Shown: piece by piece, positions 49,901-60,228 of the stretch | Layout of the letters: each line of letters opens with the position of its first letter | Numbering within the stretch: the stretch's first letter is position 1 | Assembly: GCA_030696695.1 (NCBI GenBank) | Contig: JAUYRP010000034.1 | Span: 434,001 to 498,000 of the forward strand | Direction of reading: 5' to 3' | DNA: 64,000 nucleotides | From: Methylophilus sp. | GTDB lineage: Bacteria > Pseudomonadota > Gammaproteobacteria > Burkholderiales > Methylophilaceae | The notes under the pieces: generated by a model | Databases searched by the model: none | Told to the model about the DNA's origin: nothing | The model's input: only the letters and a program-made list of their open reading frames with translations | Translations under genes and position numbers: made by a program

Positions 49901-50994
49901 AATTAGCACGTTGGCTAGCGCAAGACATCCGCGCGTTTCATGTGTTTGATTACATTACATTGCGAGCTGTACTGGCTACGCTCACGGCATTAGCTATCTC
50001 GTTTATTGTGGGTCCTGGCATGATACGCAAGCTCACAGAGTATAAAGTAGGCCAATCGGTGCGTGATGACGGCCCGCAAACGCATTTGGTCAAGGCAGGC
50101 ACGCCGACCATGGGCGGTGCCTTGATATTAGTGGCCATTGCCATTTCAACCCTGCTTTGGGCGGATTTGCATAATCGCTTTGTGTGGGTGGTGCTCATTA
50201 CAACGCTTGGTTTTGGCGCGATTGGCTGGGTAGATGATTACCGTAAAGTGGTCTACAAAAATCCCAAAGGATTGTCTGCTGGTGCCAAATATTTTTGGCA
50301 AAGCGTGATTGGATTGGGTGTTGCTATCTTTATCTACAAAACCGCCGCAAGCCCTGTGGAAACCACGTTAATCGTGCCCTTCATTAAAGCATGGACCCTC
50401 CCATTAGGTGCAATCGGCTTTATTTTGCTTTCCTATTTGGTGATTGTAGGTAGCAGTAATGCTGTCAATCTCACAGATGGTTTAGATGGCCTTGCTATCT
50501 TGCCAACTGTCATGGTGGGCAGTGCCCTTGCTATTTTTGCCTACGTAGCTGGCCATCTTTACTTCTCTAAATATCTGGGTATTCCATATGTAGCAGGTGC
50601 AGGTGAGTTGATGGTGTTTTGTGCCGCCATGGCGGGTGCAGGCTTAGGCTTTTTATGGTTCAACGCTTACCCCGCTGAGGTATTTATGGGGGATGTGGGC
50701 GCATTAGCGTTGGGGGCTGCATTGGGTGTGGTGGCAGTCATTGTGCGTCAGGAAATCGTGCTGTTCATTATGGGAGGCGTGTTTGTGATGGAGACGTTCT
50801 CTGTAGCAATACAGGTGCTCTACTTTAAATACACTAAAAAGCGAACAGGTACGGGTAAGCGCATCTTTTTAATGGCGCCATTACATCACCACTACGAACA
50901 AAAAGGTTGGAAAGAAACGCAAGTGGTCGTGCGTTTTTGGATTATCACCATGATGTTGGTATTAGTTGGTTTATCAACTTTGAAACTGAGATAA
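49891..50994 (+). CDS. mraY: Phospho-MurNAc-pentapeptide transferase
   Basis: The 367-aa polytopic enzyme makes lipid I from UDP-MurNAc-pentapeptide and undecaprenyl phosphate. About 10 membrane segments are present, with the motifs KAGTPTMGG, the catalytic [15 protein letters not shown] and APLHHHYE. The last 22 codons ([21 protein letters not shown] plus stop) occur a second time 156 nt downstream, just before murD, with only synonymous changes. The present copy ends in TAA, and the downstream copy in a TGA that overlaps the murD ATG. Confidence 0.96.
50928..50994 (+). repeat. mraY tail, copy A of a direct repeat
   Basis: This 67-nt segment, the functional end of mraY, matches 51084-51150 at 61 of 67 positions. 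The first 33 nt are identical. All six differences are third codon positions or the stop (TAA here, TGA there). Confidence 0.95.
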
Positions 50995-50997
50995 CAG

Positions 50998-51150
50998 ATG
51001 TTTATGAACACAAATAGCACGAGATTAGCGTTGGGGGAGGCTCATCAACACAAAGTGTTGGTTATGACGACACCAAACGCACACGTGCGTTTTTGGATTA
51101 TCACCATGATGTTGGTGTTAGTTGGTTTGTCTACGTTGAAGCTGAGATGA
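50998..51150 (+). CDS. Short open frame bridging mraY and murD
   Basis: The 50-codon frame starts at an ATG 3 nt after the mraY stop. It runs through the inserted segment and ends in frame with the duplicated mraY tail, its TGA overlapping the murD ATG. The last 21 residues equal the MraY C-terminal membrane helix. It is more likely a translational bridge that keeps murD coupled than a functional peptide, and translation is unproven. Confidence 0.3.
   Translation: MFMNTNSTRLALGEAHQHKVLVMTTPNAHVRFWIITMMLVLVGLSTLKLR
51017..51079 (+). repeat. Stem-loop element, copy 1 (mraY-murD)
   Basis: This segment starts GCACGAG, contains the hairpin CAACAC-AAA-GTGTTG (51046-51060) and ends GGTTATGACGACACCAAACG. 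It shares this order and much sequence with the elements at 53712 and, inverted, at 60147: pairwise 13-15 of 20 positions in the terminal block. It lies between the two copies of the mraY tail. Confidence 0.55.
51084..51150 (+). repeat. mraY tail, copy B
   Basis: The second copy encodes the identical 21 residues with five wobble changes and a different stop. Its TGA overlaps the murD start (GAGATGA), the usual compact junction of a dcw cluster, so this copy looks like the original junction. Confidence 0.9.
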
Positions 51151-52517
51151 AACCTAACTATACCAATCAACATGTACTAGTACTCGGTCTAGGAGAGACG
51201 GGACTCTCTGTCATGCGCTGGCTGCGCAAGCAAGGTGCCATCGTGTCGATGGCGGACTCTCGTTTGAATCCACCAGGCGTGGAAGCCTTGTTACAGAGCT
51301 TTCCTGATCTCAAAGTCCATACAGGGCCCTTTGTGCTAGACGTGTTGATGGATTGTGATTTGATTGTGAGTAGTCCTGGTGTGCCACTCAATGAACCTGA
51401 ACTACAAATGGCAATTGCACAGGGTAAACAAGTGATTGGTGATATCGAGTTATTCGCACTGCATCGTCCAGCCGCATCCAAGATAATCGCTATCACTGGC
51501 TCAAATGGAAAAACCACGGTGACTACATTGGTGGGGGAGATTTGCAAGCGTGCAGGGTTGAATACAGTCGTTGCTGGCAATATTGGTTTGCCGGTATTGG
51601 ATACATTAGATGGCAAAGCACCAGATGTGTATGTGTTGGAGCTATCCAGTTTTCAGTTAGAAACTACTTACAGCTTAAAAGTAGATGTGGCGACAGTGCT
51701 GAATATCTCGGAAGATCATATGGATCGCTACCCGACCATTGAAGCGTATGCCAGGGCAAAAGCACGCATTTATGATAATGCAACTTTGGCAGTAGTGAAT
51801 CGAGATGACGCGGCAAGCTTAGGCTTAACCACAACAGAGGCTGTTTCATTTGGTCTGAATGAAGCGCAAAACTATTCGGATTTTGGGGTGGTGGAAGCCG
51901 CCAATGGTACTTGGCTAACGAGTGGTAAACGCAAATTGATGCCAGTGTCAGACTTGCTGATTCATGGACAACACAATGTGGCGAATGCGCTGGCTGCAGT
52001 TGCGTTGTGCAGCAATATTGGCGTTGATAAAAGCGCAATCATCCAAGCATTGCGCCAATTCACAGGCTTACCCCACCGCGTGGAGTGGGTGGCAAATATC
52101 AATGACATTGACTTTATTGATGATTCCAAAGGCACCAATGTTGGTGCAACTTGTGCTGCCATCAAGGGCATGATGAAAGATGGCAAACCACAAAAAGTGG
52201 TATTGCTGGCAGGCGGCGATGGTAAAGGTCAAGACTTTACGCCGCTACTAGAAGCGGTGCAGGCCAATGCGCGTGCTGTGGTGTTGTTTGGGCGCGATGC
52301 ACCCTTGATAGAAGCGGTATTGTTGGCATCTGAGCTACCCATCTATGACGCCATTGATTTAAAAGAAGCGGTTGCGATTGGCCATAAAGTGGCCTCAAAA
52401 GGCGATGCAGTATTGCTGTCCCCCGCTTGTGCAAGCTTTGATATGTTTAAAAATTATGTGCACCGGGCAGAAGTATTTATTGATGCCGTCAAAGCATTGG
52501 AGGTGGCGACATGCTAA
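51147..52517 (+). CDS. murD: UDP-MurNAc-L-alanine:D-glutamate ligase
   Basis: The 456-aa Mur ligase has the N-terminal [17 protein letters not shown], the ATP motif [16 protein letters not shown] (about 116) and [11 protein letters not shown] (about 330). It adds D-glutamate as the second residue of the precursor. The start is ATG 51147; the frame is open to 51093, but that part is the out-of-frame reading of the duplicated mraY tail. It overlaps ftsW by 7 nt. Confidence 0.96.
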
Positions 52518-53677
52518 GCCCTGTGATGCTGCCGCGTGAGCGCATGACCTCTCCTAACTATGACCAAATGTTAGTGTGGGTGACATTGATTTTGTTGGGC
52601 TTGGGTTTAGTCATGGTGTATTCCGCTTCTATCGCGATTGCAGAAGCCGATAAAGCCACTGGACATCAAACCACTTATTACCTAATTCGCCAAAGCTTCT
52701 TTATTGCGATTGGCTTATGTGGAGGATTTGTCGCGTTTCAAATCCCCGTGGTTTGGTGGCAAAAAATGGCACCGTATCTGTTTTTATTCGGCTTGGCATT
52801 GTTGGTGCTGGTATTGGTGCCTGGTGTTGGGCGCAACGTCAACGGCAGCCAGCGTTGGTTACCATTGTTTGTCATTAACGTGCAGCCTTCGGAGTTTGTG
52901 AAATTGTTTGCAGCCATGTACGTCGCTGATTACGCAGTCAGAAAAGCCGAACAGATGGATAGCATTACCAAAGGCTTTTTACCCATGGTGGCTGTAATGG
53001 TGCTAGTGGGTTTCTTATTGTTAAGAGAACCAGACTTTGGTGCATTTGCCGTGATCGCAGCAATTTCAATCTCCATTTTGTGGTTAGGTGGCATTAATGG
53101 AAAAATTTTTGCCGGACTTATTCTACTGTTGCCAATCGCCATTGTGGTGTTGATTAAAAGCTCACCCTATCGGATGCAGCGCGTGATTGGATTTATGGAT
53201 CCTTGGGCCGACCCATATGGTAAGGGTTATCAGCTGTCACATGCACTGATTGCTTTTGGTCGTGGTGAATGGTTTGGGGTGGGTTTGGGCGCCAGCGTTG
53301 AAAAGTTGCTGTACTTACCCGAAGCACACACTGACTTTTTATTGGCAGTGATTGCAGAAGAGCTGGGATTTGTGGGTGTGCTTACTGTATTGGCTTTGTT
53401 TGTGTGGATTGTGATTCGCGCATTTGGCATTGGCAAAGAAGCGGTAGCTAATGAGCGCTATTTTGCGGCCCTATTGGCACAAGGCATAGGTGTATGGATG
53501 GGCGTGCAAGGCATTATCAATATTGGTGTGAACATGGGTGTGCTCCCAACGAAAGGCTTAACACTGCCTTTACTTTCATTTGGGGGTAGCGGCATTTTGG
53601 CAAATTGTATTGCCATGGCCATTTTGATTCGCATTGATTATGAAAACCGCCGGCTTCAGAAGGGCTTGCCAACATGA
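52511..53677 (+). CDS. ftsW: Septal peptidoglycan glycosyltransferase FtsW
   Basis: The 388-aa SEDS protein has 10 membrane segments and polymerises lipid II with FtsI. Family blocks are [47 protein letters not shown] and the C-terminal [14 protein letters not shown]. Its last codons ([10 protein letters not shown] and stop) are repeated 122 nt downstream next to murG. Confidence 0.95.
53657..53677 (+). repeat. ftsW tail, copy A
   Basis: These 21 nt are identical to 53779-53799. The similarity extends 12 nt further left at the protein level (Asn-Arg-Arg-Leu, all four codons different but synonymous). Confidence 0.9.
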
Positions 53678-53799
53678 GTGTAATCACTATGCATTTAAGG
53701 GCTCAATGGATGCACGAGGCGGTTTCGGTACAGGCTAACTTGCAGGGCAAGTTATGCCGTAGCCAAAATCGTAGATTGCAGAAGGGCTTGCCAACATGA
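53674..53799 (+). CDS. Short open frame bridging ftsW and murG
   Basis: The 41-codon frame's ATG overlaps the ftsW stop (ATGA). It runs in frame through the insert into the duplicated ftsW tail, and its TGA overlaps the murG ATG. It mirrors the mraY-murD arrangement. No domain was recognised; a translational bridge is the likeliest role. Confidence 0.3.
53712..53768 (+). repeat. Stem-loop element, copy 2 (ftsW-murG)
   Basis: It starts GCACGAG and contains a perfect hairpin TAACTTGC-AGG-GCAAGTTA (53736-53754) preceded by GGC, then ends AGTTATGCCGTAGCCAAAA. It has the same block order as copy 1, and its right end directly touches the second ftsW tail. Confidence 0.55.
53779..53799 (+). repeat. 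ftsW tail, copy B
   Basis: Second copy of the last seven ftsW codons, preceded by AAT CGT AGA TTG (Asn-Arg-Arg-Leu, synonymous with the true gene end). Its TGA overlaps the murG start. Confidence 0.9.
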
Positions 53800-54899
53800 T
53801 GTTAGATAACGTAATTACGCGCTTTGATAAGCACACCATCATGGTGATGGCAGGTGGTACGGGTGGGCATGTGTACCCAGCTATGGCCGTGGCTGATTAT
53901 TTAAAAGCGCATGGCTGGCAAGTCGTGTGGTTAGCAACTGAAGGTGGCATGGAAAATAGATTGATAGAAGGAAAAGGATATGCCAAGGCCATGATGACGA
54001 TGCAAGGTGTGCGCGGCAAAGGCATCAAAGGCTGGCTGTTATTACCCATCAAATTAACCAAGGCGTTGCTTCAGGCCAAACGTGCGATTCAGGATCATCA
54101 GCCTAATGTAGTGCTCGGGATGGGAGGCTTTGCGGCTTTTCCAGGTGGATTGATGGCAAAGCTAATGGGTAAGCCGCTAGTGGTGCATGAGCAAAACTCC
54201 GTAGCTGGGTTGACCAATAAAGTATTGAGTTTGATTGCAAATCGCGTGTTAGTAGCGTTTCCAAATGTATTGGGAGATACCTCGATTTTGGTCGGTAATC
54301 CTGTGCGTCAAGATTTGACCGAATTGATGGCACCGGAGAAGCGTTATGCCAAGCAACAAGGCAAATTAAAGCTGTTGGTAGTGGGTGGTAGTTTGGGTGC
54401 TGCTGCGCTCAATGATGTATTGCCAAAAGCCTTGGCGCAATTAAGTCCAGATGAACGGCCTGTGGTAATTCATCAAGCGGGTGAAAAACATATTGAAGCG
54501 CTGAAACACAACTATCAAGCGGCTGGCGTGCAGGCGGATACCAAAGCATTCATTCACAACATGGCAGAGGTTTATGCTTGGGCTGATGTAGTGATTTGCC
54601 GTGCAGGTGCACTAACAGTGGCTGAATTGGCATGTGTGGGTGTCGCCAGTGTTTTAGTGCCGTTTCCGTTTGCTGTGGATGACCACCAAACGACTAATGG
54701 CCGATATTTGGCGGATAACGGTGCAGCGATACTGGTTCAGCAGTCCGCGTTTGATGTGGCTAAAGCGACAGTAATATTGCGCAGTTTTACACGAGAGAAA
54801 TGCTTAAGCATGGCGATCAATGCAAAGAAGCTAGCACAACCAGACGCCACCACTACAGTTGCAAAAATTTGTATGGAGTGCGCCTTTACAGGGGCATGA
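53796..54899 (+). CDS. murG: UDP-GlcNAc:undecaprenyl-PP-MurNAc-pentapeptide transferase
   Basis: The 367-aa peripheral membrane GT28 enzyme makes lipid II. The N-terminal MVMAGGTGGHVYPAMAVA and GMGGFAAFPGG form the acceptor side, and ICRAGALTVAEL (about 268) the UDP-GlcNAc site. The first 15 residues (to HTIMV) are a slight extension; ATG 53796 or the adjacent ATG 53799 are both possible. Confidence 0.95.
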   Translation: MMLDNVITRFDKHTIMVMAGGTGGHVYPAMAVADYLKAHGWQVVWLATEGGMENRLIEGKGYAKAMMTMQGVRGKGIKGWLLLPIKLTKALLQAKRAIQDHQPNVVLGMGGFAAFPGGLMAKLMGKPLVVHEQNSVAGLTNKVLSLIANRVLVAFPNVLGDTSILVGNPVRQDLTELMAPEKRYAKQQGKLKLLVVGGSLGAAALNDVLPKALAQLSPDERPVVIHQAGEKHIEALKHNYQAAGVQADTKAFIHNMAEVYAWADVVICRAGALTVAELACVGVASVLVPFPFAVDDHQTTNGRYLADNGAAILVQQSAFDVAKATVILRSFTREKCLSMAINAKKLAQPDATTTVAKICMECAFTGA

Positions 54900-54917
54900 C
54901 CATCACAAGGCATAAAT

Positions 54918-56312
54918 ATGAAACATAAAGTCAAAAATATACATTTTATCGGCATCGGCGGCTCAGGCATGAGTGGCATCGCCGAGGTGTTGGTGAACTT
55001 GGATTTTGAAGTGAGCGGCTCTGATTTGGCAAGCAACGCCACAACCAAGCGCTTGGCATCGTTTGGTGCCACTGTGTATCAGGGGCATGCTAAAGAACAT
55101 TTAAATGACGCTGATGTGGTGGTGGTATCAAGTGCTGTGAACGAGCAAAACCCAGAAATCATTGCAGCGCGTGAAAAGAATATTCCAGTGATTCCACGTG
55201 CTTTGATGTTGGCAGAGCTGATGCGCTTTAAGCAAGGCATTGCAGTGGCTGGTACACATGGCAAGACCACGACAACCAGCCTGATTGCCAGTATTTTGGC
55301 AGAGGCTGGGATGGACCCTACGTTTGTGATTGGTGGCAAATTGGAATCAGCCAGTACCAATGCGCGTTTAGGTAGTGGTGATTATATTGTGGTAGAGGCA
55401 GATGAGTCTGATGCGTCATTCCTGCATTTGAGCCCAATTCTGGCGGTAGTAACCAATATTGACCATGACCACATGGGCACCTATGAACACAGTTTTGAAA
55501 AACTCAAAAGTGCATTCGTGGAGTTTTTACAGCAAATTCCGTTTTGGGGGATGGCGGTGTTGTGTACTGATGATGCCAATATCCGCGAGATTTTGCCAAG
55601 GGTGACGCGCCCTGTGATGACCTATGGCACCACTGACGATGCCAGAATTCGTGCAAAAAATATTCGTGCAGACAACGGCAAAATGCACTTTACCGTAGAC
55701 CGTATCAATGGCGTGACGACGACATTTGATGTCACCTTGAATTTACCAGGTAATCACTACGTGCTGAATGCGTTGGCTGCCATAGCTGTAGCCAGTGAGC
55801 TCAATGTGCCGGATGAAGCCATCGTGAAAGCCTTGAGAGAATTTAAAGGTGTGGGTCGCCGCTTTGAGCGTTATGGCGAGATTCCAGCACGCACAGGGGG
55901 AGCTTTTACCTTGATTGATGACTATGGACATCACCCGGTGGAGATGCAAGCGGTCATTGCGGCAGCACGTGGGGCCTTTCCAAATCGCCGTTTAGTCATG
56001 GCCTTTCAGCCACACCGTTACACACGGACTAGAGATTGTTTTGAGGATTTTGTCAGCGTGTTATCGACCACAGATGTAGCTTTATTGACCGAAGTGTACT
56101 CAGCCGGTGAAACACCGATTGTAGCTGCAGATACACGTAGTTTGATTCACGCAATACGTGTAATCGGCAAAAATCAACCAATGTTTGTTGAGACAACTGA
56201 TGCGCTGCCAGAAGCCATATTGAATGTCGCACAGGCCAATGATGTGGTGATTGTGATGGGCGCAGGCAGTATTGGCCAAGTGGCAGCCAAAACCAAGGAG
56301 CTTGCTCAGTGA
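54918..56312 (+). CDS. murC: UDP-MurNAc:L-alanine ligase
   Basis: The 464-aa Mur ligase that begins peptide assembly has the N-terminal [18 protein letters not shown], the ATP motif [14 protein letters not shown] (about 110) and [10 protein letters not shown] near 336. It overlaps murB by 4 nt and follows murG by 18 nt. Confidence 0.96.
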
Positions 56313-57199
56313 TGGCACAAACCAAATCAGGATCTGTGCTGTTAAAACAGGAACCGTTAGCGCGCTACACCAGCTGGCGCGTGGGTGGCAAAGCAGATCA
56401 ATTGTTTATTGCAGACAGCGTGGAAGATTTGCAGGCGTTTTTACACGGATTACCCGCAGCTGAACCTGTCCATTTTATTGGGTTGGGTAGCAATTTACTA
56501 GTGCGTGATGGTGGTGTGCGTGGCACGGTGATTGTCATGCATCAAGCGTTAAGTGAATTGCAGATGGACGGTGAGCGGTTATATGCAGATGCTGGCGTGA
56601 CTTGCGCCAAATTGGCACGCTTTAGCGCAACACAAGCCAAGCAAGGTGCCGAGTTTATGGCGGGTATACCAGGCACAGTGGGTGGCGCATTGGCAATGAA
56701 TGCAGGTTGCTACGGTGCTGAAACATGGGACATTGTAGATCAAGTGAAAACCATCGATTTGGCAGGCGAAATGCACATCCGTGATAAAGCAGAGTATGTG
56801 GCGACATACCGCCATGTGCAGTTTCCTAAAGCAGATGAGTGGTTTTTAGGGGCATGGTTTACGTTAAAAGCAGGTGATGTAAAAGAGTCAACCCTGAAAA
56901 TTAAGCAACTATTGGCCACACGTTTGGCAAGCCAGCCACTCAATATGCCAAGTGCAGGCTCTACCTTTAGAAATCCAGAAGGTACCTACGCTGCCAAGTT
57001 AATTGAAGAGTGCGGACTCAAAGGTTACATCATCGGTGGCGCACAGGTTTCAGAAAAGCACGCCAACTTTATTGTGAATGTGGGTAATGCCACAGCGCTA
57101 GATATTGAATTATTGATTAAACATATTAAGGAAAAAGTGCTGGCGCAACATGGGATTGCACTGCACCAAGAAGTGAGAGTGATTGGCGAGTATGCGTAA
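56309..57199 (+). CDS. murB: UDP-N-acetylenolpyruvoylglucosamine reductase
   Basis: The 296-aa FAD enzyme reduces enolpyruvyl-UDP-GlcNAc to UDP-MurNAc. The FAD motif [15 protein letters not shown] is near residue 56, [15 protein letters not shown] near 119, and the catalytic Ser is in [12 protein letters not shown] (about 217). It is of the shorter MurB type. It overlaps ddlB by 8 nt. Confidence 0.95.
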
Positions 57200-58145
57200 C
57201 GAAGTCGACGTAAAAAAATTTGGCAAAGTGGCTGTGTTGTTAGGTGGTAAATCTGGCGAGCGCGAAGTGTCGCTTAAAAGTGGCAATGCCGTATTGGCCG
57301 CATTGTTGAGACAAGGCGTGGATGCGTACGCATTTGATCCAGCGGAAAGACCTTTGAATGAGCTGGGTGGATTTGACAGAGTGTTTATCTCTTTGCATGG
57401 CCGCTTTGGTGAAGACGGCACCATACAAGGTGTGCTCGATTTAATGGGTATCCCATATACCGGTAGTGGTGTCATGGCCTCAGCCGTAGGTATGGATAAG
57501 TGGAGAACCAAATTGCTTTGGCGTGCAACCGATGTGGCGACGCCTGAATTTGAAATGCTGAATGCCAATACGAATTTTGACCAAGTGGTAGAACATTTAG
57601 GTTTGCCGCTATTTGTAAAACCAGCCAACGAAGGATCAAGTATCGGTATTAGCAAAGTGAAATCGGCGAGCGAATTACCTGAAGCATATGCGTTAGCAGC
57701 AAAAGCAGATCCACTAGTGATTGCGGAGAGGTTTGTAGGCGGTGGTGAATATACCGTAGGTATGCTTGATGGCATTGCACTGCCAATAATTCGTATTGTG
57801 CCTAAAAATGAATATTACGATTTTGAAGCAAAGTACTTGCGTAACGATACTGAGTATCACTGCCCATCAGGGTTAGACCCTGCCAAAGAAGCGCAGATTC
57901 AGCAAGAGGCTGTGCATGCTTTTGATGTATTGGGATGTAAAGGTTGGGGGCGCGTCGATTTCTTAATGGATGGGGCACCAGAGAATCCAGAAAGTCGCCA
58001 TTACTTTTTAGAAGTAAATACTAGCCCAGGCATGACCGACCATAGTTTGGTGCCCATGGCGGCAAAAGTTGCTGGGATGGAGTTTGACACATTGGTGCTA
58101 CGTATTTTGGCAATGACGTTACAGGACGCTAGCCGTGTGGAATAA
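57192..58145 (+). CDS. ddlB: D-alanine-D-alanine ligase B
   Basis: The 317-aa ATP-grasp enzyme has the start [33 protein letters not shown] near 60, [14 protein letters not shown] near 145 and the metal site [15 protein letters not shown] near 280. It makes the dipeptide used by MurF. ATG 57192 is preferred over the in-frame TTG 57183. It overlaps ftsQ by 11 nt. Confidence 0.96.
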
Positions 58146-58863
58146 ACCACAACTGTTAAATTGGATCGCCAATTTTTTATACGCAACCTCCATTGTAATG
58201 CTGCTGTACGGATTGCTGTTTGTGGTTGTGCATCTGCCCATATTTCCACTGCGGGAGGTGCGTGTGGAAGGTGACTTATCCCATGTGAATCGGGAGCAGA
58301 TTAAGCTGATTGTAGCGAAGCATTTGAAAGGTAACTTTTTTACACTGAATTTAGAGCGCACGCGGGACGCGTTTGAAAAGTTACCTTGGGCACGCAGTGT
58401 AAGTGTAAGAAGACGCTGGCCAGATCAGATTGTAGTAGGGATTGAGGAGCATCAAGCTTTAGCGCGCTGGGGAAATTTGGCACTGGTGAATACACATGGT
58501 GAATTGTTTCATGCTGCTTCTGATGCGTTATTGCCCGTGTTTTATGGGCCTGGTGACGGGGTGCTGGAAGTGACAAAAGGGTATGCCACATTTGAAAAAA
58601 TATTGCAGCAAGCCAACATGAAGATAGCACAAGTTAAATTATCACCAAGACGGGCTTGGGAAATCAAAACCAAAGATGGGATGCAAATTGCGGTTGGTCG
58701 TGTAGATATGACCAAGCGTTTAGAAAAGTTTACAAAAGGCTACGTGACTACGTTGAGTCACCTCAATGTAAAAGTGACTTATGCAGACTTGCGTTACCCA
58801 AATGGATTTGCAGTGAGAAAGCCAGCACATATGAAACAACTAGAGCGTAAGCCGTCAGCATGA
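58135..58863 (+). CDS. ftsQ: Cell division protein FtsQ
   Basis: The 242-aa bitopic protein has one membrane segment (about 10-33), a POTRA domain starting [20 protein letters not shown] and the beta domain with [22 protein letters not shown]. The start is GTG 58135 inside the end of ddlB. It organises the divisome with FtsL and FtsB. Confidence 0.94.
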
Positions 58864-58894
58864 GTGACAAGGGAATAATTGGTGGGGAAAACAC

Positions 58895-60133
58895 ATGAGT
58901 AAAGTGCGGGAAGATAAAAATTTAATTGTGGGGCTGGATATCGGCACCTCAAAAATCGTGGCGATAGTCGCTGAGCTATTGCCAGAAGGATCAATCAAGG
59001 TGATTGGTTTAGGGCAGCATATTTCACGCGGGTTGAAAAAAGGCGTAGTGATCAATATTGATTCCACCATGCAGGCGATTCAGCGCGCGATTGAAGAAGC
59101 TGAGCTGATGGCGGATTGCAAAATCAACACCGTGTTCACAGGTATTGCTGGTAGCCATGTCAAAAGCCTGAATTCGCATGGCATGGTGAAAATTAAAGAC
59201 GCAGAAGTATCGCAAATGGATGTAGACCGTGTGGTGGAGACAGCGCGCGCAATCGCACTACCAGCAGACCAGCAGATTCTACATATTTTGACGCAAGAAT
59301 TTATTATCGATGGCCAAGAAGATGTGCGTGAGCCACTCGGCATGAGCGGCATGAAGCTAGAAGTGAAAGTGCATATCGTCACAGGTGCAGTTGCGGCTGC
59401 ACAGAATATTGTGAAGTGCATCAAGCGCTGTGGCTTAGAAGTCAGCGATTTGATTCTGCAACCTTTGGCATCAAGCATGGCTGTGCTGACAGAGGATGAA
59501 AAAGAATTAGGAGTGTGCTTGGTGGATATCGGCGGTGGTACCACGGACATTGCAGTGTTTAAAAATGGCGCCATTCGTCATACCGCCGTGATACCGATTG
59601 CAGGCGACCAAATGACCAATGATATTGCTGTGGCTTTCCGCACACCTACGCAGTCGGCTGAGGAAATCAAAGTGAAATATGGATGTGCACTTAGACAGCT
59701 GGCTGATGCACGCGAAGTAGTAGAAGTGCCTGGTGTGGATGGCCGTGAGCCACGTCAGCTTTCCATTCAAACGTTGGCAGAAGTAATTGAGCCGCGCGTA
59801 GTGGAGTTGTACGAGTTTGTGCAGCAAGAGCTGAGACGCAGTGGTATGGAAGAAATGATTGCATCTGGCATTGTCATCACAGGTGGTTCGGCTGCCATGC
59901 GTGGCATGGTGGAATTGGGCGAAGAGATATTCCATACCCCAGTACGTTTGGGGATGCCGCGTTATGTGGCTGGCCTATCAGAAGTGATTAACAACCCAAG
60001 GTATGCCACTGGTGTGGGCTTGGTGTTGATGGGTAAACAGCAGTTAGAGCGTCAGCTCATGGGACAAATGCAGACTGGTTCCATAGTTAGAATTTTTGAA
60101 AGAATGAAGAGTTGGTTTCAAGGCAATTTTTAA
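58895..60133 (+). CDS. ftsA: Cell division protein FtsA
   Basis: The 412-aa actin-like protein tethers FtsZ to the membrane. The start NLIVGLDIGTSKIVAIV and the ATP motif VDIGGGTTDIAVFKNG (about 210) are diagnostic, and an amphipathic C-terminal helix (IVRIFERMKSWFQGNF) acts as membrane anchor. GGTGGGG lies 7 nt before ATG. The final codons (QGNF, stop) recur 95 nt downstream. The gap from ftsQ is itself a 12-codon ATG-TGA frame joined by ATGA overlaps. Confidence 0.96.
   Translation: MSKVREDKNLIVGLDIGTSKIVAIVAELLPEGSIKVIGLGQHISRGLKKGVVINIDSTMQAIQRAIEEAELMADCKINTVFTGIAGSHVKSLNSHGMVKIKDAEVSQMDVDRVVETARAIALPADQQILHILTQEFIIDGQEDVREPLGMSGMKLEVKVHIVTGAVAAAQNIVKCIKRCGLEVSDLILQPLASSMAVLTEDEKELGVCLVDIGGGTTDIAVFKNGAIRHTAVIPIAGDQMTNDIAVAFRTPTQSAEEIKVKYGCALRQLADAREVVEVPGVDGREPRQLSIQTLAEVIEPRVVELYEFVQQELRRSGMEEMIASGIVITGGSAAMRGMVELGEEIFHTPVRLGMPRYVAGLSEVINNPRYATGVGLVLMGKQQLERQLMGQMQTGSIVRIFERMKSWFQGNF
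60118..60132 (+). repeat. ftsA tail, copy A
   Basis: TCAAGGCAATTTTTA is identical to 60213-60227, and AGTTG occurs just before both, with a 3-nt difference in spacing. Confidence 0.75.
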
Positions 60134-60135
60134 TT

Positions 60136-60228
60136 GTGCAGGAGTTGGTTTGGCTGCGACATAACCTAAAGGTGAGTCTACGCCGCAACAGACTGCTGCG
60201 CAGTCTTAGTTGTCAAGGCAATTTTTAG
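60136..60228 (+). CDS. Short open frame after ftsA ending in the duplicated ftsA tail
   Basis: A GTG start 2 nt after the ftsA stop opens a 30-codon frame through the insert, ending Cys-Gln-Gly-Asn-Phe-stop, like the FtsA end Phe-Gln-Gly-Asn-Phe. It parallels the two frames upstream, but ftsZ here has its own strong ribosome site 96 nt later. The peptide is basic (Arg/Leu-rich). Confidence 0.2.
   Translation: MQELVWLRHNLKVSLRRNRLLRSLSCQGNF
60147..60201 (-). repeat. Stem-loop element, copy 3 (ftsA-ftsZ, inverted)
   Basis: Read on the minus strand it ends GGTTATGTCGCAGCCAAACC, matching 15 of 20 positions of the terminal block of copy 1 and of copy 2, preceded by ACTCACCTTTA and GTTGCGGCG blocks. 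A perfect hairpin AGACTGC-TGC-GCAGTCT (60190-60206) marks its other end. Orientation is opposite to copies 1 and 2. Confidence 0.5.
60213..60227 (+). repeat. ftsA tail, copy B
   Basis: The 15-nt repeat of the ftsA end is followed by TAG instead of TAA and lies at the right edge of the insert. From 60229 to 60324 the ftsZ leader follows, with AAGTAGTTGA present twice near 60230-60256 and no obvious promoter. Confidence 0.7.

Follow-up and report, generated by a model that had tools for sequence, protein, structure and literature searches.

Small gene-end cassettes with a guide and a folded core in the cell-division operon of a Methylophilus genome and in other beta-proteobacteria

On integrating at the 3' end of a gene such as icd, phages and genomic islands provide the gene with a new end that has diverged by synonymous changes, and the recombination boundary of the integron attC site is G|TTRRRY. 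In fungal mitochondria, according to PMC3630166 (which also cites the Allomyces atp6 case), the mORFs present in atp6, atp9, cox2, and nad3 fuse a foreign C-terminal end to the host gene and leave the native end downstream, the two ends differing mostly by synonymous changes, and horizontal spread has been proposed for them. Guide-selected cleavage has been described for IS200/IS605 and REP elements (PMC8266576). Here, we analyze three inserts in the cell-division operon of a Methylophilus sp. (assembly GCA_030696695.1), all contained in a stretch of 64,000 nucleotides (contig JAUYRP010000034.1, positions 434,001 to 498,000), which is referred to as the window and whose numbering is used for the operon. 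The 3' end of the host gene (mraY, ftsW, or ftsA) is repeated across each of the three inserts, and we conclude that they are probably copies of a non-autonomous, horizontally mobile family of cassettes tuned to gene ends.

Unit anatomy and guide pairing

The comparison covered 101 genomes, one per species, comprising the genome that holds the window (G000, 2.98 Mb) and 100 relatives. Two models of the element were used: R1, made from 13 copies including insert 2 and started from related stem-loops at the ftsW-murG junction of several other genera, and R2, made from 25 cores from other genomes (none titled Methylophilaceae) drawn from a pattern scan of named genomes. We refer to the 13-nt left end of a unit as T, to its reverse complement beside the core as the guide, and to the downstream gene end as T2. 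The comparison of 210 copies yielded 98 in which both a repeat and T could be located; 71 of these were nontandem and 68 distinct, with the unit counts being sensitive to the search windows and to the sampling of the strongest copies.

A gene-end unit measures 76 to 183 nt (median, about 141; n = 68) and contains, in this order, T, which starts with AAA, the end of the host gene with its stop codon, a spacer, the guide, and a core ending in CCAAAA. The unit is placed between GA and AAA, and the native gene end stays downstream. The preceding bases are GA in 57 of the 68 units, GA having been given a small bonus in the search for the unit start, and the right edge reads CCA|AAA; the distance from the start of T to the core varies from 30 to 127 nt and lies between 79 and 97 nt in 40/68. 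The guide is the reverse complement of T over 13 positions, after which the match ends: agreement is 94 to 100% at positions 0 to 2, 54% at position 12, and about 0.2 to 0.4 from position 13 onward. The original prediction, made from the window alone, had overlooked both this guide, which can pair with the left end of its own unit, and the boundaries GA|AAA and CCA|AAA.

A guide-T stem score of at least 8 was obtained for 49 of 86 copies and for 39 of 1,690 controls with swapped guides. In a permutation test within families of units at the same gene, the 13 ftsW units had 106/130 pairs against a permuted mean of 73.4 (0/5,000 permutations) and the 10 argF units 84/100 against a permuted mean of 61.4 (0/5,000); the smaller families gave 79/5,000 (folE2, six units), 176/5,000 (dps-like, five units), and 200 to 240/5,000 (three families of four units). 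Given the swapped guides and the within-family permutations, the pairing is attributable neither to base composition nor to common ancestry of the gene ends. The covariation is directly visible among the Burkholderiaceae ftsW units, where one guide-T pair reads A-T, C-G, and T-A. Direct repeats scoring above 20 were present in 102/210 copies, tandem arrays included, versus 1/210 after shuffling.

The core has the layout TTTCGG-n-GNA-GGCTAAC-hp1-GTTAAGC-(hp2)-GGCCGNAGCCAAAA. In the 153 of 195 distinct cores that could be parsed, the arms of hairpin hp1 covary (3.39 consecutive pairs versus 0.67 with swapped arms), the arm sequence being nearly free and the pairing kept. The internal loop GNA, whose middle base varies, was located on the 5' side in 143/195 cores (GCA 56, GTA 41, GAA 29, and GGA 17) and on the 3' side in 151/195; its constancy is no independent result, since both the core parse and the named-genome pattern demand GNA. 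Hairpin hp2 is less certain, its first two base pairs being perfect in only 41/146. The folding energy of one full copy is -43.4 kcal/mol (z, -5.4). Rfam gave no match at E ≤ 1 between positions 50500 and 61000 of the window, and on 10 loci nothing above the gathering score except tRNA.

Target sites, mobility, and distribution

Fifty of the 68 units lie in sense orientation before a stop codon, 48 of these 50 within 11 to 28 codons; the other 18 comprise 7 antisense units at gene starts, 9 others, and 2 that are too short. The hosts are conserved genes; among the proteins scanned, those recognized above the NCBIfam cutoff include ftsW, mraY, ftsA, folE2, argF, dapD, ccmE, acsA, metK, serS, alanine transaminase, trpE, the succinate-CoA ligase alpha subunit, dksA, and nuoD (at its start), with one Dps-like match below the cutoff and three proteins without a match. 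The genes for tRNA-Leu, tRNA-Ser, and tRNA-Phe are also among the sites, an intact tRNA-Leu gene standing before the units at L233 and an intact tRNA gene after the unit at L086, L134, L186, and L249. At these five loci, partly by eye, the units lie in the anticodon-loop region and partial tRNA repeats adjoin the intact gene. The T2 frame is kept in 32/50 units, which fits recent displacement and occasional excision alike. RNA splicing was rejected as a general account, T2 being joined to the gene out of frame or in changed form in 18/50. In Paraburkholderia ftsW (L232, L248, L250, and L282), species diverge strongly over the first 10 to 20 nt of the downstream end, which nevertheless read in frame by eye, while within one genome the remainder of the repeat is near-identical.

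A precise insertion that brought in a foreign 3' end is observed at folE2, where G015 carries a unit and its sister G021 has the empty site. Upstream, 60-nt windows of the two genomes are 0.90 to 1.00 identical; the net insert is 134 nt and leaves only an A-run, and the downstream end in G015 is the native end of G021, the first 70 nt differing at one position. The 3' end brought in by the insert resembles that of G008 (0.96 from T to guide), whereas the region upstream in G008 reaches just 0.77 to 0.90. At this locus, where it can be told, the upstream copy is borne by the element, which has pushed the native end downstream, a point missed by the original prediction. Several other pairs are also more alike from T to guide than in the upstream gene, e.g., Pandoraea L251 and Cupriavidus L256 with 0.95 versus 0.77. 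After the comparison of G015 with G021, a simple long target-site duplication was dropped as the sole account, and it may fit the first origin of new units.

The family is common in beta-proteobacteria and near-restricted to one order. R1 matched 60/101 genomes at E ≤ 0.01. A phylum-wide draw of 299 genomes, searched with strict filters at E ≤ 1e-5, gave matches in 5: G000, three further members of its order, and one genome that shares only its class. At least 16 genomes of the order were in the draw and had no match. The named-genome pattern scan returned at least 119 stretches, several rows coming from one assembly; among the 80 matches listed, 71 bear beta-proteobacterial titles (counting Hydrogenophilus), 7 read "Proteobacteria" only, 1 "bacterium," and 1 Gammaproteobacteria, and the groups seen among them include Methylophilaceae, Rhodocyclales, Gallionellaceae, Burkholderiaceae, and Oxalobacteraceae. 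The existence of further copies is thus borne out, and in our own genome six model matches were obtained at E ≤ 1: inserts 2 and 3, the dksA end (contig C2), one on C17, and two on C32. The core had no match among PLSDB plasmids and INPHARED phages when searched with a single 84-nt query.

Units form arrays at L102, L094, L098, and L158. The highest copy number in one genome is 47 (G056), many of the copies being nested in larger repeats; at L123 to L132 of this genome, the core lies inside larger dispersed repeats, which are about 230 nt long, in some cases have the ends GGAAACGCTGAAG...TTCAGCGTTTCC, and have a MITE-like look. Minimal copies also occur as close inverted pairs, with starts about 96 nt apart, inside longer dispersed repeats (L136, L139, and L203 in G004, G021, and G007, respectively). 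The minimal copy at G000:C17:474540-474589 (L084/L115) lies inside a frame read as an ABC transporter, which is open for 398 codons across the copy, and no duplication was seen there.

The three inserts of the cell-division operon

All three inserts are insertions missing from close relatives: G012 and G019 have none of them, G001 has inserts 2 and 3 and lacks insert 1, and G006 has an ATGA overlap of mraY and murD without insert 1, its contig stopping short of the other two sites. The sequence GTTATGNCGNNNCCAAA is exact at 51061-51077 (plus), 53751-53767 (plus), and 60149-60165 (minus), so the three motif blocks of the original prediction are located where it had put them, and its orientations (copies 1 and 2 with the operon, copy 3 against it) are correct. 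There is no other exact match in the genome, and with two mismatches the motif, whose pattern was derived from the three inserts themselves, is not commoner genome-wide (57 + 40) than a reversed control (72 + 69); in the window, it has three such matches, a number reached by 36/100 shuffles. The units and their parts are as follows.

50915..51074, plus strand: unit 1 (probable member), in mraY; left edge by eye; absent from G006; missed by R1 and R2
50915..50994, plus strand: mraY 3' end with stop codon TAA in unit 1, then a spacer, the diverged core, and the end CACC
51031..51077, plus strand: diverged core of unit 1 with GTTATGACGACACCAAA; hairpin 51046-51051/51055-51060, CAACAC-AAA-GTGTTG; from sequence and pattern
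51075..51150, plus strand: downstream mraY 3' end (T2); its TGA overlaps the murD start, as in G006
53644..53765, plus strand: unit 2, in ftsW; T and ftsW 3' end with stop codon (53644-53677), spacer, guide, and core; absent from G012 and G019, common to G001
53718..53725, plus strand: guide of unit 2, GGCGGTTT; 8-nt complement of AAACCGCC in copy 1 (53644-53651) but not of AAATCGTA in copy 2
53723..53768, plus strand: core of unit 2, TTTCGG..AGGCTAACTTGC-AGG-GCAAGTTATGCCGTAGCCAAAA; R2 E = 5.5e-12, R1 E = 3.8e-13
53766..53799, plus strand: downstream ftsW 3' end (T2); overlaps the murG start and encodes the same 11 residues
60109..60151, plus strand: gene-side ftsA 3' end, with GAGTTGGTTT, CAAGGCAATTTTTAA (stop codon 60131-60133), filler, and a second GAGTTGGTTT at 60142-60151
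60152..60213, minus strand: unit 3, minimal type, antisense at the ftsA end; edges by eye; absent from G012, present in G001
60187-60213, minus strand: T-loop-guide hairpin, which together with the core makes up unit 3
60148..60188, minus strand: core of unit 3; R2 E = 9.7e-4, R1 E = 4.5e-6
60214..60228, plus strand: downstream ftsA end, CAAGGCAATTTTTAG

In the R2 search of the window, the next best match after inserts 2 and 3 had an E value of 0.1; the R1 values are those of a model that contains insert 2. These two inserts are firmly members of the cassette family. Insert 1 escaped both models even with filters off and is probably a member on the grounds of its motif, its hairpin, and its mraY site, the codon (by eye) being that of L244, L247, and L261. 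The prediction of one family is therefore secured for inserts 2 and 3 and probable for insert 1. As predicted, each of the three does hold, taken literally, a perfect hairpin whose loop is 3 nt, but that of insert 3 (60191-60205) is the T-guide hairpin and not the core hairpin. Three further parts of the prediction are supported: that the repeats are non-autonomous, that they lie at gene ends, and that they go together with a duplicated 3' end of the host gene. In G000 and G001, both end copies of ftsW share changes, as if by gene conversion (by eye).

Mechanism, alternatives, and known systems

In an excised form, the 3' end of the core would meet T and, because T and the guide are complementary, guide, core, and T would fold as one long hairpin, which in the integrated form would be split over both ends of the unit, much as an integron cassette works with its attC site, although the unit is not itself such a cassette. 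A trans-acting strand-transfer enzyme would join the unit at A|AAA, between the GA and AAA of the target. Only insertions that spare the gene would survive, and units would therefore persist at gene ends, each tuned to one gene; such a unit would bring the gene's last codons, leave the native end displaced behind it, and be able to pass from one species into the corresponding gene of another. Excision, a circular or single-stranded form, the enzyme, and the first gain of a gene end with its guide are steps that we infer. A more daring version, which we put forward tentatively and think unlikely, holds that guide-programmed cassettes of beta-proteobacteria, in which the 13-nt guide beside a conserved, interrupted core joins unit end and target, are moved as folded single strands by a host recombinase (possibly IntI acting outside integrons), repeatedly swapping the C termini of essential genes between species.

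Several observations weigh against mobile cassettes tuned to gene ends. No enzyme that would move the units was found, and no excised form was seen. The precise insertion at folE2 is a single clean species pair, since there is one genome per species. In both of the most transfer-like pairs, the cores are less alike (0.81 for Pandoraea/Cupriavidus and 0.79 for G008/G015). In the majority of argF pairs, moreover, the T-to-guide part does not exceed the upstream gene in identity, so transfer of whole units is not established in general. A 13-nt T with at most one mismatch lies within 260 nt in only 54/211 copies, the remainder including short-hairpin units and decayed guides; the guide partly matches T2 in mraY units and at L221, L225, and L243, and the three serS units show no guide-T covariation (1,642/5,000 permutations). 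T2 is broken or altered in 18/50 units, although in two of these (L232 and L282) the frame is kept and the end is longer. Some repeats (L248 and L251) extend past the gene end into native sequence, a pattern more suggestive of duplication or conversion on the spot than of import. Finally, no unit was recognized at a noncognate gene, no systematic search for such units having been made, and this calls for strong selection or homology-dependent targeting.

The original prediction had proposed looking for an enzyme gene beside the copies; open reading frames at 140 loci were clustered, and translations of the 45 largest clusters, inspected by eye without a domain search, revealed no recombinase. 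Autonomous long units were sought up to 5 kb upstream (1.5 kb at many loci), with one far 13-nt T match among 211 copies, taken as chance. A reverse transcriptase was rejected as the mover, showing no association with copies; G000 encodes a reverse transcriptase at C30:1950-2570, separate from its integron integrase.

If the units were REP-like elements moved as single strands by a Y1/HUH transposase (RAYT or IS200/IS605 kin), with TTT/guide choosing the cleavage site, the interrupted stem-loop with an adjacent 5' guide would be accounted for, guide-chosen cleavage being described for both groups in PMC8266576. We consider this improbable: the Y1 domain PF01797 occurs in 47/101 genomes and was found neither in G000 nor in many carriers, copies are present in 29/47 genomes with it and 31/54 without it (P = 0.69), there is no fixed GTAG (GTA in 41/143 parsed), and the boundary is A|AAA, not CT/CA. 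The REP-like label of the original prediction is likewise not supported, given this lack of association. An integron integrase to which the core looks like an aberrant attC, and which places it at secondary sites, would suit the cassette-like logic and the arrays, and copies are indeed present in 39/51 genomes with IntI above the cutoff versus 21/50 without (P = 5.5e-4, phylogeny ignored), an association that we keep only as a lead. Within the home genus, however, IntI does not separate carriers from noncarriers, and carriers without IntI above the cutoff exist (e.g., G070 and G077; G056 has a short fragment only). The boundary A|AAA is not the G|TT of attC, the core GTTA lies inside hp1, and of six integrase or integrase-fragment regions examined by a simple scan, three had ordinary GCCTAAC..GTTAGGC-type sites and the other three had none, leaving this account with little probability as well. 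G000 encodes a full-length integron integrase at C17:328156-329100 (500 bits, TIGR02249).

A homing-type element would be moved by a trans-acting endonuclease that cuts the empty site, which is then repaired from the carrier, the recoded 3' end being immune. It would give the outcome reported for fungal mitochondrial mORFs (PMC3630166), and the same sites are struck in many genera. On the other hand, units of 76 to 183 nt are too small for an enzyme reading frame, the sequence upstream of the G015 insert resembles the empty sister G021 and not G008, and the covariation of a 13-nt guide is left unexplained, so that we hold homing to be an improbable account. Very little probability is assigned to an origin without any transposition, by hairpin-templated replication errors and local duplication combined with horizontal transfer of ordinary alleles, the fold being kept as a 3' untranslated region or terminator-like element. 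The repeats of L248 and L251 that run into native sequence and the changes shared by the ftsW copies of G000 and G001 (by eye) speak for it; the recurrence of one core at numerous unrelated genes and at tRNAs, together with the precise 134-nt insertion at an empty site, speaks against it.

If mobile cassettes tuned to gene ends are the correct explanation, they would represent mobile elements of a new kind: enzyme-less, self-repairing, only about 140 nt long, and residing in genes thought to be intolerant of insertions. They would account for duplicated gene ends at overlapping junctions (mraY-murD and ftsW-murG) and for horizontal exchange of C-terminal codons among housekeeping genes. The small guide-core unit would also be a substrate for tracing a recombination activity, and near-restriction to one order would make the hunt for the enzyme feasible. 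We found no description of the family by title or abstract start, which is weak evidence of novelty, as bioRxiv and most subscription journals lay outside the search.

Compared with known systems, the phages and islands at gene 3' ends are kilobases long and carry an integrase, whereas the cassettes carry only the gene end. From MITEs of DDE transposons, the other family named in the original prediction, they differ in lacking terminal inverted repeats with a short constant target duplication, in the variable distance from T to core, and in an inverted part that is specific to each unit. They share with REP/RAYT and IS200/IS605 elements an interrupted palindrome that folds as a single strand and a guide-like segment 5' of the stem (PMC8266576), and they differ in having neither Y1 co-occurrence nor a fixed GTAG and in their 13-nt unit-specific guide and gene-end cargo. 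The prediction regarded the configuration as absent from described families, yet fungal mORFs (PMC3630166) present a parallel with the same genetic outcome, a foreign end and a displaced native end being seen at folE2 of G015 and consistent with the findings elsewhere; the mORFs, however, carry a LAGLIDADG or GIY-YIG endonuclease reading frame and measure several hundred nucleotides to about 1 kb, while the bacterial cassettes are enzyme-less, about 140 nt long, and built on a guide-core structure. With integron cassettes and attC sites, they share small size, a terminal structured site, first bases complementary to the 5' flank of their own hairpin, and arrays; they differ in the A|AAA boundary, the 13-nt pairing, and a cargo that is a piece of the target gene, and no integron platform or attI was recognized for them. 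Since REP/RAYT, MITE, attC, and homing reading frames each fail at least one defining test, we file the family under none of them and regard it, on this comparison, as a new kind of element that would work most nearly like a cassette.

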